Under the pieces are notes generated by a model. The model was not told the DNA's origin. It saw nothing but the letters and a program-made list of their open reading frames with translations, and searched no databases. A stretch of DNA of 64,000 nucleotides from Accumulibacter sp. (GTDB lineage Bacteria > Pseudomonadota > Gammaproteobacteria > Burkholderiales > Rhodocyclaceae), in NCBI GenBank assembly GCA_024235715.1, contig JACKLW010000005.1, positions 496,001 to 560,000 on the forward strand, read 5' to 3'. The position numbers and the translations under genes are program-made. This document shows positions 55,821 to 60,056 of the stretch, in pieces (position 1 is the first letter of the stretch; every line of letters begins with the position of its first letter).

Positions 55821-55896
55821 GGGTCGGTAGCTCAGTCGGTAGAGCACTGGACTTTTAATCCATTGGTCGTGAGTTCGAGCCTCACCCGACCCACCA
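55821..55896 (+). tRNA. tRNA-Lys (TTT), integration site of the island
   Basis: A 76-nt tRNA with acceptor stem GGGTCGG and its complement. It continues with D-arm GCTCAGTCGGTAGAGC, anticodon loop CTTTTAA with anticodon TTT, T-arm TGAGTTCGAGCCTCA and an encoded CCA. The top pair of the anticodon stem is C27-U43, which cannot pair. The 3' 46 nt recur at 60,011-60,056. A terminator follows at 55,911-55,939. Confidence 0.96.
55851..55896 (+). repeat. Left direct repeat (att-like, inside tRNA-Lys)
   Basis: 46 bp identical to 60,011-60,056 except at two positions (55,854 T versus C and 55,877 G versus A). This is the usual recombination core for tyrosine integrases that target tRNA 3' ends. Confidence 0.78.
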
Positions 55897-56264: not shown

Positions 56265-56373
56265 TGGATCTCCCTTCGTCGCCCTCCTTCAGTCGGGATG
56301 CCGCGCCAGCCGGGGAAGGGACCCGGTTTTCTCCCTCGGGGATCAGCCTCTGGATAGGCGCGGCAAGACTCGT

Positions 56374-56691
56374 TCAGGCCAGGTGCTCCTCCCGGCGGGC
56401 AACTGCCAGGCGCAGACCCGCGGCGGACAGGACAGCCAGCAGCGTCTCAAGCGTCGGATTCCCCTTGGGAGACAGCGCGCGGTAAAGGCTTTCACGGCGT
56501 AGCCCGGCACGTTCAGCTACTGCCTCCATGCCTTGCGCTTGGGCGACGTGGCGCAGGGCGCGCAGCAGAGCTTGCCGCCCGCCGGGTTCGTCGGCTTCTT
56601 CCAGCGCGGCGGCCAGGTATTCATCGGCAAAGGCCGGGTCTTCGCGGAGCAGTTCCACCATTGCTTCATCGTGGGGGCGGGTGGCTTTCAT
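56374..56691 (-). CDS. Antitoxin of a HigBA-like type II system (HTH)
   Basis: A 105-residue DNA-binding antitoxin. The C-terminal half carries a helix-turn-helix of the addiction-module antidote type (GMEAVAERAGLRRESLYRALSPKGNPTLETLLAVLSAAGLRLAV). The N-terminal part is acidic and helical (DEAMVELLREDPAFADEYLAAALEEADE). It overlaps the toxin stop as ATGA. As in HigBA systems the toxin gene comes first. It presumably neutralises the toxin and represses the pair's promoter. Confidence 0.85.
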   Translation of the reverse strand: MKATRPHDEAMVELLREDPAFADEYLAAALEEADEPGGRQALLRALRHVAQAQGMEAVAERAGLRRESLYRALSPKGNPTLETLLAVLSAAGLRLAVARREEHLA

Positions 56692-57014
56692 TGTGCGTTT
56701 CTCCTTTGCCAGTCTTGCCAGTAGCGGACGGCGGTTGCAATGTCGACTTGCTGCCGGCGCTTGTCACCACCGACGAGCAGCAACAGCACTCGCCGGCCGG
56801 CCTGAGCGTAATACACCCGGTAGCCGGGACCATGGTCTATCTTCAGTTCCCATACCCCATCGCTCAACGGCTTGTGGTCGCCGAAGTTGCCGGCGGCCAT
56901 GCGTTGCACCCGAACGGCCACCCGCGCGCGCGCCCGCCGGTCTGCCAAACCTGCCAGCCACTCCTTGAACGGGTCGCGGCCGTCTTCCGCCTGATAGTCG
57001 AGAATGTCGAACAT
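56688..57014 (-). CDS. RelE/HigB-like toxin (phage-derived Gp49-like)
   Basis: A 108-residue RelE-superfamily toxin, probably a ribosome-dependent mRNA interferase. It contains PFKEWLAGLADRRARARVAVRVQRMAAGNFGDHKPLSDGVWELKIDHGPGYRVYYAQAGRRVLLLLVGGDKRRQQ, with the WELKI...GYRVYY core and a basic GGDKRRQ tail that are standard for this addiction-module killer family. It is the first gene of the pair. Such modules are typical cargo that stabilises islands. The upstream stretch 57,015-57,184 has no gene but one more CCATGTAGCCA copy near 57,151. Confidence 0.87.
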   Translation of the reverse strand: MFDILDYQAEDGRDPFKEWLAGLADRRARARVAVRVQRMAAGNFGDHKPLSDGVWELKIDHGPGYRVYYAQAGRRVLLLLVGGDKRRQQVDIATAVRYWQDWQRRNAQ

Positions 57015-57184: not shown

Positions 57185-57192
57185 CGCAGAGC
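57185..57192. repeat. Left 8-bp target-site duplication
   Basis: CGCAGAGC, identical to 59,912-59,919 on the other side of the transposon. Confidence 0.92.
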
Positions 57193-57214
57193 GTAACTAT
57201 TCGGTGAACCCGTA
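57193..57214 (+). repeat. Left terminal inverted repeat of the IS66-family element
   Basis: 22 bp starting GTAACTATTCGG, the exact reverse complement of 59,890-59,911. The two ends diverge immediately inside. Confidence 0.93.
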
Positions 57215-57276
57215 AGCAGCCTTGGGTATCGAATACGGGCTGGACACATGCATCAAGTCGGTCTACAGTCGGCCGC

Positions 57277-58974
57277 ATGGATACGGCACGGGACATCGTC
57301 GAGGATCTGCCTGCGATAAGCGAGGGGAAGTGCCCTGCGTTTTCGCAGGTGTTGGTGACGCTGAGCAAACAAGCGTATATCCAGCTCACTTGGGATGCGA
57401 GGTACTGGAAGACCACCTATCAAAGAGCGATTGCTCGTCTGCGGGAACTTGAAGAGCGTCATCGACGAGAAACCGAGCAGGCCGCACAGCGCGAAGCCGC
57501 GTTGCGCGGTGAGTTGTCGGCCGCTCAGGCCAAGATTCGTGAGCTACAAAAGCGTGTGTTCGGTCGCAAATCGGAGCAATCGTCTGGTGCAGATCGAGCG
57601 CCCACAGCGAATGTCCCCTCGCCTCGGTCGCGAGGTCAGCAGACGGGTGCGCCGGGTCATGGACGGACGATGCACGGCCATCTGCCGGCGCACACCGAAA
57701 GCATCGAAATTGATTCGCCGCAGTGCCCATCTTGTGGTCTGAGCTTCGCCGACTTTCCTGGCAGCGAAGACAGCGAGGTCCTCGAAATCGAGGTGTGCGC
57801 GTACCGACGGGTCATCCGTCGGCGACGTTATCGAAAGACCTGCGCCTGCAAGGCTACCCCGGGCATCATTAGCGCGCCGCCGCCGGCGCGCTTGATCGAG
57901 CGCGGCAAGTACGGCATTTCGGTCTGGGTGCACCTTTTGCTCTCCAAGTTCCTCTACGGTCAGCCAACGCATCGTCTCCTGCAGGATCTGGCTGATTGCG
58001 GCTTGAGCTTGTCAGCGGGCACCCTCACGGGCGGACTACAAGCGCTGGCACCCCTGTTCGAACCGCTGGAAGCCGCGCTCCTGACCCGACTGCGCAGCGA
58101 GACTCACTGGCATGCCGATGAGACCCGCTGGCAGGTGTTTATCGACGTCGAAGGCAAGATCGGGCATCGCTGGTACCTGTGGGTGTTTCAGTCCCCCTCG
58201 GTGATTCACTATGTGCTTGACCCGACGCGATCGGCGAAGGTGCCGATCGCCGAATTGGGCGACGTGCCGGGTGGGATATTGAGCTGTGATCGCTACGCGG
58301 CCTACAAGAAATTCGCCAAGCAGCACACGACGGTGATTCTGGCCTATTGCTGGACGCACCAGCGGCGCGATTTCCTGGAACTGGCCAACGCGCATCCTGA
58401 TCTTCGCGCCTGGGCACTCGTCTGGGTCGACCGGATTGGCGAGCTCTATCAGCTGAACGCCCGGCGCCTCGACAGCGAATCGGACGCCGTCACCGATGCC
58501 GCAGGCGATCAGTCGTTGCGGCGAGCGATAGACCGCATGGCCGCCAACCGCGATGCCGAACTCGCCGAGTCCTCGCTCAAGACCGCAGCGCTCAAGGTGC
58601 TGCAAAGCATGAAGAAGCATTGGTCAGGCTTGACGGTGTTTGTCGATCACCGCGAGGTGCCCATGGACAACAATGCGGCCGAACGAGCCATTCGCCTGCC
58701 GGTGGTCGGGCGCAAGAATTTCTACGGTTCGGGAAGTTGCTGGGCGGGCGAATTGGCGGCGACGATGTTCAGCCTGCTGATGACGGTCAAGCACTGGGGG
58801 ATCAATCCGCGAACCTGGCTGACTGCCTATCTGCAAGCCTGTGCGGAAAACGGCAACCAACCGCCGGCCGAGCTGAGTGTCTTTCTTCCCTGGACCATGG
58901 ATGCCGAAGGCCTGGCGGCGATGCGCCGTGGCGCGCCTGATCACGCGGGCGCGGCAGGCATCGACAGCTCATGA
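57277..58974 (+). CDS. IS66-family transposase (TnpC type)
   Basis: A 565-residue DDE transposase. An N-terminal coiled coil (about 45-95) ends in the IS66 leader motif VFGRKSEQ. A zinc-finger region (CPSCG) and a basic RRRRYRKTCAC stretch follow, then the catalytic domain. Catalytic residues are D281 (HADETRW), D338 (SCDRYAAYKKF) and E469 (NNAAERAIR); the family GRKNFYGSGS follows the glutamate. Everything is intact. Its last codons overlap the next gene as ATGA. No IS66 orf1/orf2 helpers are present. Confidence 0.95.
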   Translation: MDTARDIVEDLPAISEGKCPAFSQVLVTLSKQAYIQLTWDARYWKTTYQRAIARLRELEERHRRETEQAAQREAALRGELSAAQAKIRELQKRVFGRKSEQSSGADRAPTANVPSPRSRGQQTGAPGHGRTMHGHLPAHTESIEIDSPQCPSCGLSFADFPGSEDSEVLEIEVCAYRRVIRRRRYRKTCACKATPGIISAPPPARLIERGKYGISVWVHLLLSKFLYGQPTHRLLQDLADCGLSLSAGTLTGGLQALAPLFEPLEAALLTRLRSETHWHADETRWQVFIDVEGKIGHRWYLWVFQSPSVIHYVLDPTRSAKVPIAELGDVPGGILSCDRYAAYKKFAKQHTTVILAYCWTHQRRDFLELANAHPDLRAWALVWVDRIGELYQLNARRLDSESDAVTDAAGDQSLRRAIDRMAANRDAELAESSLKTAALKVLQSMKKHWSGLTVFVDHREVPMDNNAAERAIRLPVVGRKNFYGSGSCWAGELAATMFSLLMTVKHWGINPRTWLTAYLQACAENGNQPPAELSVFLPWTMDAEGLAAMRRGAPDHAGAAGIDSS

Positions 58975-59828
58975 GACGCTACTGCGGACGCGACTTTGGC
59001 GCCGATGAACTGCTGGCCGTGGCGCAGCTGATCGCGAAAAATCCCGGCGCCAACCGTGCTGAACTCTCGCGACAACTGTGTGTGTTGCTCGATTGGTTCA
59101 AGCCCAATGGCGGTTTGAAGGACATGAGCTGCCGGGTGGCCATGCTGCGCATGCAGGCCGATGGACTGATCACCTTGCCTCCATCCCAATTGCGGCCTCG
59201 TCGTCGCCCCGAATTCGTTGCCACCGCCGCCACCGATGCGCAGCCACTCCTGGCGCAACCCGTACATGAGTTGGCGCCACCGTGCTTGCGCCAGGTCGCA
59301 GGGACGGCGAACTCGCGCCTGTGGAACGAGTACATCGCCCGCTATCATTATCTGGGCTACACGCCCATGGCCGGTAGTCAGATGCGCTACTTCGTCTACG
59401 AAGGCGAGCGCTTGCTGGCCTTGTTGAGCTTCGGCGCCAGCGCCTGGAAACTCGCGCCACGCGATCGCTTCATCGGCTGGGACGAGGCGCAGCGGCAGAG
59501 AAACCTGCAACTCATCGTCAACAACGCCCGCTTCCTGATCTTGCCGTGGATACAGTCCAAGGGCTTGGCATCAAAGATTCTGTCAGTCATCCAGCGGCAA
59601 CTGCCCAACGATTGGCTCCAGCGATACGGCTACCGCCCGGTGCTCTTCGAAACCTTCGTGGAAACGCCCCGCCATCGCGGCACCTGCTATAAAGCCGCCA
59701 ACTGGATCAACGTCGGGAAAACCACCGGTCGCGGAAAAAAGTGCCAAGGTCATCAACCCATCCTGCCCATCAAGGACATCTGGCTCTATCCTCTGCGGAA
59801 CAACTTCCGCTCCCTTCTCGCTCGATAG
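58971..59828 (+). CDS. DUF4338 (DruA-like) protein encoded inside the transposon
   Basis: A 285-residue protein of the DUF4338 family, whose best-known member is DruA of the Druantia anti-phage systems. The N-terminal ~80 residues form a helical domain (YCGRDFGADELLAVAQLIAKNPGANRAELSRQLC). The conserved core (about 110-270) has RYHYLGYTPMAGSQMRYFVYEGERLLALLSFGASAWKLAPRDRFIGW, then NNARFLILPWIQSKGLASKILSVI. It ends with the terminal block RHRGTCYKAANWINVGKTTGRGK. It is coupled to the transposase by an ATGA overlap and ends 61 bp before the right inverted repeat. No other Druantia gene (large helicase DruE etc.) is nearby, so defence is unproven and a transposition-accessory role is equally possible. 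Confidence 0.88.
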   Translation: MRRYCGRDFGADELLAVAQLIAKNPGANRAELSRQLCVLLDWFKPNGGLKDMSCRVAMLRMQADGLITLPPSQLRPRRRPEFVATAATDAQPLLAQPVHELAPPCLRQVAGTANSRLWNEYIARYHYLGYTPMAGSQMRYFVYEGERLLALLSFGASAWKLAPRDRFIGWDEAQRQRNLQLIVNNARFLILPWIQSKGLASKILSVIQRQLPNDWLQRYGYRPVLFETFVETPRHRGTCYKAANWINVGKTTGRGKKCQGHQPILPIKDIWLYPLRNNFRSLLAR

Positions 59829-59889
59829 CGCCGTCAGACTCGGGATAGCTCCAGACGTAACAGTCGGATACTCCGCAACGCAGCTTGGC

Positions 59890-59911
59890 TACGGGTTCAC
59901 CGAATAGTTAC
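59890..59911 (-). repeat. Right terminal inverted repeat of the IS66-family element
   Basis: 22 bp, exact reverse complement of 57,193-57,214. Confidence 0.93.
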
Positions 59912-59919
59912 CGCAGAGC
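59912..59919. repeat. Right 8-bp target-site duplication
   Basis: CGCAGAGC, identical to 57,185-57,192. Confidence 0.92.
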
Positions 59920-60010
59920 AACGTCAATTTACTTCATCCTATTGTTTTTGTTATGTTTTCTACAATTCAGCGAATCCCGTTCAACATGAAGAAATGCGCC
60001 TTTTTCCAGG

Positions 60011-60056
60011 ACTCTTAATCCATTGGTCGTGAGTTCAAGCCTCACCCGACCCACCA
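60011..60056 (+). repeat. Right direct repeat (partial tRNA-Lys copy, att-like)
   Basis: 46-bp near-copy of the tRNA-Lys 3' half, from the anticodon loop to CCA, without the 5' half, so it is not a gene. It carries CTT at the anticodon position where the intact tRNA has TTT. It is followed by a hairpin GGCCAG-AGTTCGCC-CTGGCC (60,067-60,086) that may be the tRNA's original terminator. Confidence 0.8.

Follow-up and report, generated by a model that had tools for sequence, protein, structure and literature searches.

In the IS66 family of insertion sequences (ISs), the helper genes tnpA and tnpB belong to a classical subgroup and are absent from members that carry tnpC only. Phage Mu is a transposing phage whose DNA is protected by Mom. 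Published passages attribute to Mom the modification of adenine in DNA (PMC7824862), and others refer to DUF4338 as a GNAT domain that is fused to some DndF proteins (PMC10853773). We have analyzed a 64,000-nucleotide stretch of an Accumulibacter sp. genome (GCA_024235715.1, contig JACKLW010000005.1, positions 496,001 to 560,000; hereafter the window) that holds a complete element in which an IS66-type transposase gene, tnpC, is followed by a DUF4338 (druA-like) gene (Table 1). The DUF4338 gene is very probably an integral partner of this element, and we lean, by a narrower judgement, towards reading the whole as an autonomous insertion sequence of IS66 type, with a second gene that serves as such a partner and not as cargo. 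More tentatively, and with doubt prevailing, at least four DDE transposase families (IS66, IS4/Tn5-like, ISAs1 and IS701-like) might share a swappable Mom-related, base-modifying partner, fused or translationally coupled to the transposase, that would mark element or target DNA in transposition. No report of a pairing of DUF4338 or DruA with IS66 was found in searches confined to open-licence full texts.

The terminal inverted repeats of the window element match at 22 of 22 positions, and a search for the 22-mer with up to three mismatches returned just the two element ends in the 64-kb window, against a mean of 0.00 in 100 shuffled sequences; with no hit in any of the 100 shuffles, a chance origin of the ends is ruled out. 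Together with the exact 8-bp target duplication (CGCAGAGC on both sides), these are the boundaries that an earlier reading of this stretch (the original prediction) had described. Residues D281, D338 and E469 of TnpC, which we take from family knowledge to be the catalytic triad, were likewise found at the positions assigned to them there, and the DUF4338 gene does start inside the tnpC stop codon, through an ATGA overlap at 58971-58974. The distance of 61 bp said to separate that gene from the right end holds from its stop codon to the inverted repeat; to the end of the element it is 83 bp. Only 62 bp lie to the left of tnpC and 61 bp to the right of the DUF4338 gene, leaving no room for tnpA or tnpB. 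The same genome contains three full-length copies of the element, 100% identical, and exactly six inverted-repeat ends forming three pairs (at most three mismatches), so that a single decayed copy is ruled out. The C15 copy is flanked by an 8-bp duplication of its own, GTCCGGTT, which differs from that in the window, and the duplication of the third copy is unreadable because this copy starts at base 1 of its contig. Three identical copies, three pairs of ends and distinct duplications indicate recent movement of both genes as a unit. The 5-kb stretch of a distant IS66 copy of this genome (about 29% identical) contains no match to DUF4338.

Used as a query, the window DUF4338 protein retrieved 79 loci, of which a single Accumulibacter genome (ACC003) contributed 30. 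The loci are spread over many phyla, and an archaeal metagenome-assembled genome (MAG) is among their sources. At 68 of the 79, tnpC lies at most 700 nt upstream of the DUF4338 gene. Allowing up to two mismatches to a 12-base consensus, both ends were recognized at 28/30 ACC003 loci and at 31/49 others, with at most one mismatch at each end in 28/28 and 28/31 of these pairs, respectively; a separate search, for inverted repeats occurring in pairs, recovered mostly the same ends. tnpC sequence is found between the recognized ends at all 59 such loci which, with the identical copies in the home genome, bears out the earlier proposal that the DUF4338 gene travels with the IS. At 27 of the 28 readable ACC003 loci, the element is bordered by exact 8-bp duplications. 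The DUF4338 protein is closer to its window counterpart than TnpC is in 31/31 full-length pairs, and the 4-nt overlap is retained in 29 of the 39 elements measured (ACC003 is counted once, through L008, in both figures, and contributes only L008 and L018 to the TnpC tree discussed below). Five comparisons with the window DUF4338 gene gave NG86 ratios of non-synonymous to synonymous substitution (dN/dS) of about 0.15-0.24, with synonymous sites near saturation. Among 29 genomes picked for holding the gene, it stands beside tnpC at 29 of 30 examined TnpC loci, the remaining one being a contig-end fragment. Whereas these locus sets are biased by the way in which they were found, samples seeded with TnpC suffer less from such bias but are small. 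At E 1e-80, three of 199 genomes of the ACC003 family matched, all three with the gene beside the examined loci, and in a phylum sample of 398 genomes the home genome alone matched.

The association extends beyond IS66. According to Pfam, a DUF4338-type domain is fused to a Tn5-like transposase in L145 and L243, to an ISAs1 transposase in L149 (home genome) and L139 (on a plasmid of Thiodictyon, where its annotation reads ISAs1 family transposase), and to a DDE_5/IS701-like transposase in L245 and L255. Elsewhere the transposase adjoins the DUF4338 gene: Tn5-like in L083 and L085, DDE_5 in L080, and ISAs1 in L244, L270 and L284. Within IS66, the gene orders tnpC-druA, druA-tnpC and tnpB-druA-tnpC were seen. 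Inverted repeats at L083, L081 and L296 score 16, 19 and 13 (shuffled flanks: at most 11, 10 and 10), with exact 8-bp duplications at a shift of 2, 0 and 1 bases; the end pairs of L298, L301, L290, L292, L085, L080 and L149 score near shuffled flanks, and no ends were found for L145, L139, L146, L075 and L293. At E 0.001, PF14236 matched in 12/229, 8/199, 35/247 and 29/249 genomes of four samples, each built around genomes in which the gene had been seen before. Within flanks of only about 1.5 kb, a transposase was seen at at least 14/30 and at least 11/30 loci of two of these samples, and nothing was recognized at 12 loci in each; at DUF4338 loci lacking a recognized transposase, three neighbours match DUF772, under its cut-off. 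Plasmid records matched DUF4338 in two of 72,556 cases at E 1e-5, and 50,697 phage records gave no match at the same threshold. A pattern scan of viral contigs, which detects close relatives only, found no close relative of TnpC, and profile searches found five DUF4338 loci there, four of which (L190-L193) also carry IS66 genes or pieces. A phage origin of the tnpC-DUF4338 pair is unsupported by these scans.

Several of these loci are of interest in their own right. L149 (3148-5282, on C5 near 1,084 kb) shows that the home genome has a further type of DUF4338 element, with the domain fused to an ISAs1-type N-terminal region and the DDE part in another frame. L235 (1417-3464) has two DUF4338 genes adjoining in opposite directions and, beyond one of them, a 471-aa gene with no Pfam match at E 0.001. 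L082 is an ANME-2 archaeal MAG contig with a DUF4338 gene beside a PF01609 transposase gene, on both sides of which there are pieces that by eye resemble IS66 transposase. The PF14236 match is split in two within larger proteins in L286 (1-3435), L285 (1327-3480) and L148 (179-3904), the first of which has additional weak STAND/AAA matches.

A tree of 123 DUF4338 domains, built without duplicates and a list of loci, is divided by a branch with 100/100 support into 109 rows and 14 DruA-type proteins of about 400 aa, so called by length and profile match (L260 was dropped from these rows); DruA-type proteins were entered whole and the others as trimmed domains, which may lengthen the DruA-type branch. 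Labels on the larger side are IS66 (58), ISAs1 (11), Tn5-like (10), IS701 (3) and none seen (27), so that 82/109 rows are labelled as having a transposase adjacent or fused, in agreement with the earlier suggestion that some DUF4338 proteins are transposon parts. The IS66 label of L082 comes from the pieces recognized by eye and that of L076 from likeness to L075; among rows with none seen, L302 duplicates the IS701 row L245 and L265 has IS66 pieces, and the downstream protein of L273 resembles the IS66 transposase of L289. On the starred branches the forced label changes are at least eight for IS66, four for ISAs1, and three each for Tn5-like and IS701, in counts that unlabelled rows raise and that include a few faulty labels. 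Partner switching among transposase families is apparent in this tree; this pairing across several families, like the relation to Mom described below, is something that the original prediction missed. Repeated fusion to transposases, the overlap with tnpC and conservation above that of tnpC make a part in transposition the best reading of the DUF4338 gene, and the transposition accessory foreseen at first fits this evidence.

Other observations weigh against an obligate and general partnership. With the DUF4338 protein as the query, the 79 loci give no measure of how often TnpC occurs without the gene, and the TnpC-seeded samples yielded few close relatives. Exact 8-bp duplications occur at just 7 of the 29 readable loci outside Accumulibacter, many of the loci outside ACC003 being short metagenome contigs whose two flanks may come from different sites. 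Between the ACC003 types L008 and L009, DUF4338 is more diverged than tnpC (dS 0.178 vs 0.068). An IS-linked DUF4338 clade, which had been proposed as a check, does separate from the DruA-type proteins, but 27 of its 109 rows were labelled as showing no transposase. Finally, G011, from the class sample, has a TnpC relative (45-48% identical) in an element of 2020 bp that lacks the DUF4338 gene and has related ends, of which 11 bp are identical to each other, and an 8-bp duplication, AAAATTAA. A rival inverted pair 3122 bp apart scores higher there (16, against 11 for the 2020-bp pair), and the shorter was chosen for a right end like the IS66 consensus (three mismatches) and for its exact duplication. 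(In genome G196, TnpC pieces lie at contig edges, which allows no judgement on presence of the gene.) The G011 element would make the gene dispensable in some settings, unless it was deleted after insertion or is supplied in trans. G011 is nested, with 100/99 support, in a TnpC clade where 33 of 34 rows (mostly chosen through the DUF4338 gene) have the gene, and its tnpC frame reads through the right end without a stop codon, so that a secondary, internal deletion is likely. Judged from sequence, G011 is thus best read as a probable loss, and the expectation that related ends without the gene would identify a passenger is borne out only in part.

The predicted fold of the DUF4338 protein links it to Mom. 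For the GNAT-fold domain, VIA-align ranks Mom first, and a 12-protein Mom profile aligns with a set of DUF4338 proteins (A1, which leaves out L049 and L077 for their stop codons, and further loci) with an hhalign E of 3.3e-8. A Mom profile matches 28/28 transposon-borne proteins, and 0/14 DruA-type proteins match PHROG 1384 at E up to 1 (hhalign E of the latter proteins versus Mom, 0.27). Positions conserved in Mom (HY, S124 and G-Y-A-N-G) pair with residues that are identical in 28/28, and sequence profiles match Mom and no other acyltransferase family. Searches of PDB sequences gave nothing below E 0.49. On the other side of the balance, Foldseek's own order puts Mom at rank 15 (E 7.7e-5), behind FeeM, SpeG and RimI chains; a single Mom sequence against A1 is not significant (hhalign E 0.091); the scores of the window protein (17.2 bits) and L245 (22.6 bits) are under the Mom cut-off of Pfam (27.1 bits); and opposite the invariant D149 of Mom stands E231, a position at which 24 of 28 sequences have E, three Q and one V. 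Taken together, profiles and models make it quite probable that the DUF4338 domain is homologous to Mom. The assignment of the N-terminal part as helix-turn-helix (HTH)-like is weak because its best Foldseek match has an E of 0.39.

It can be proposed that TnpC and the DUF4338 protein are probably translated from a single transcript in a coupled manner, and that the partner comprises a small helical domain at the N terminus, which may bind DNA, and the Mom-related GNAT-fold domain. This partner would most likely act on nucleic acid during transposition, and DNA would be the likeliest substrate given its relation to the adenine-modifying Mom; an example of such an action would be the placing of an acyl-type group on adenines of element DNA or its ends. 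Base modification by the partner is a serious possibility on sequence grounds, if somewhat short of an even chance. Its purpose could be to shield element DNA from host nucleases or to control the timing or site of movement, although shielding or regulation as the purpose is a doubtful proposition at this stage; an alternative benefit might be the control of strand transfer or target use. We infer the catalytic activity, the DNA substrate and the benefit of the predicted enzyme from these relationships.

If the GNAT domain instead acetylated the transposase or a host factor, transposition could be regulated at the protein level, but profiles select Mom and no other acyltransferase family, and Mom comes first by VIA-align, so that we hold a protein acetyltransferase to be rather unlikely. 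That the window element has too little space for tnpA or tnpB would suit a non-catalytic accessory, with the GNAT fold serving as a scaffold that binds DNA or the transposase and perhaps replaces the TnpA/TnpB helpers. However, L081 carries tnpB together with a DUF4338 gene, which argues against a simple replacement, and, apart from E231, the counterparts of the conserved Mom residues are invariant in 28/28; such a scaffold is, in our view, unlikely. An incidental passenger, retained because it is harmless, finds some backing in G011, evidence that this clade can include an element lacking the gene. Against it stand the conservation above that of the transposase in every one of the 31 pairs, on which the simple passenger reading was rejected, the near-constant presence of the gene in the TnpC clade (subject to the way its rows were chosen), the spread of loci over many phyla and an archaeal MAG, and the fusions to other transposases, which together leave it hardly credible.

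The original prediction had also raised the possibility of a mobile defence gene, which here would be a DruA of a phage-defence system that rides the IS66 element and protects the host. Pfam does name PF14236 after Druantia DruA and matches the window protein, over profile positions 41-222 of 297 only, the PADLOC DruA model matches the window protein weakly (26.3 bits, E 9.4e-7), and a protective role is conceivable given the protection that Mom affords to Mu DNA. However, the element carries no other Druantia-like gene, and its protein falls outside the DruA-type branch, on the side where all transposon-borne proteins compared match Mom. The listed open reading frames (ORFs) between 54 and 64 kb, a list that excludes ORFs running off the window end, include no closed ORF above 565 aa and hence none of the size of the Druantia helicase (DruE). 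Repeated transposase fusions also indicate a role in transposition. A defence gene is therefore very improbable, and a Druantia fragment is ruled out by the missing helicase-sized ORF, the separate branch and the lack of a Mom match in DruA-type proteins. Among the 14 DruA-type proteins, one locus (L088/L141) has neighbouring genes whose sizes resemble those of Druantia. Three others, L142 (3284-7400), L143 (6555-10731) and L144 (7894-12000), have a row made up of the DruA-type protein of about 400 aa, a 395-aa protein and a HerA-like ATPase (by Pfam in L142 and L143, by likeness in L144), a candidate defence cassette.

Table 1. Features of the two-gene element and its flanks, in window coordinates
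Feature	Position	Strand	Basis or remark
Two-gene IS66-type element, complete	57193..59911	+	2719 bp; ends, target duplication, 3 identical copies
Target duplication CGCAGAGC, left copy	57185..57192	.	read directly
Target duplication CGCAGAGC, right copy	59912..59919	.	read directly
Terminal inverted repeat, left, 22 bp	57193..57214	+	
Terminal inverted repeat, right, 22 bp	59890..59911	-	
tnpC, IS66-family DDE transposase, 565 aa	57277..58974	+	PF03050 E 3.2e-59; NCBIfam NF033517 (IS66 transposase) E 2.3e-93
DUF4338 gene (druA-like), 285 aa	58971..59828	+	PF14236 (DruA/DUF4338) E 4.1e-44
N-terminal helical, HTH-like part, residues 1-70	58971..59180	+	AlphaFold2 residues 1-84, mean confidence (pLDDT) 86.7, three helices
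Mom-related GNAT-fold domain, residues 99-285	59265..59825	+	

The surroundings of the element show further features. A complete tRNA-Lys gene (55821-55896) is followed 4.1 kb further on, at 60009-60056, by 48 bp that repeat its 3' end at 96%, and the two look like attachment sites bounding the remnant of an integrated island, with the IS inside it. An int-alpA RNA (RF02996, 55.3 bits) at 56286-56364 is perhaps a trace of this tRNA-Lys island remnant, within which small Gp49-like (PF05973) and addiction-module antidote-like (PF21716) genes at 56374-57014 look like a toxin-antitoxin pair.

Compared with known systems, the window element has in common with the IS66 family a PF03050 transposase with its D, D and E residues, inverted repeats and an 8-bp target duplication, and differs by the DUF4338 gene inside the ends and by the lack of tnpA and tnpB. 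With Mom of phage Mu and the Mom-like proteins of phages (PF25680, PHROG 1384) its partner shares the GNAT fold and the HY, S and G-Y-A-N-G positions; unlike them, it has an extra N-terminal helical domain, scores below the Pfam cut-off and belongs to proteins carried by, or fused with, IS transposases. Druantia DruA is in the same Pfam family (PF14236; hhalign E 1.6e-7 over 98 columns), but DruA-type proteins are longer, lack a Mom match, form a clade of their own and, in the cases inspected, have different neighbouring genes. If our reading is correct, transposon-borne DUF4338 proteins should be split from the DruA type, which bears on defence annotation, and a family known mainly by a defence name would gain a testable role; multicopy genomes such as ACC003 would offer native DNA open to inspection for modified bases. 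The DUF4338 domains fused to DndF share the GNAT call, in a defence context and with no transposase link in the passages concerned (PMC10853773). If true, several kinds of bacterial transposons would recruit an enzyme of DNA-modifying type, and the Mom-related partners would be a bacterial counterpart of the TET/JBP dioxygenases that fungal DNA transposons are reported to carry in many lineages and with transfers between them (PMC12730594). The two cases would have in common the capture of one type of base-acting enzyme by many transposon lineages, and differ in that the fungal elements are eukaryotic and employ another enzyme, which oxidizes 5-methylcytosine.

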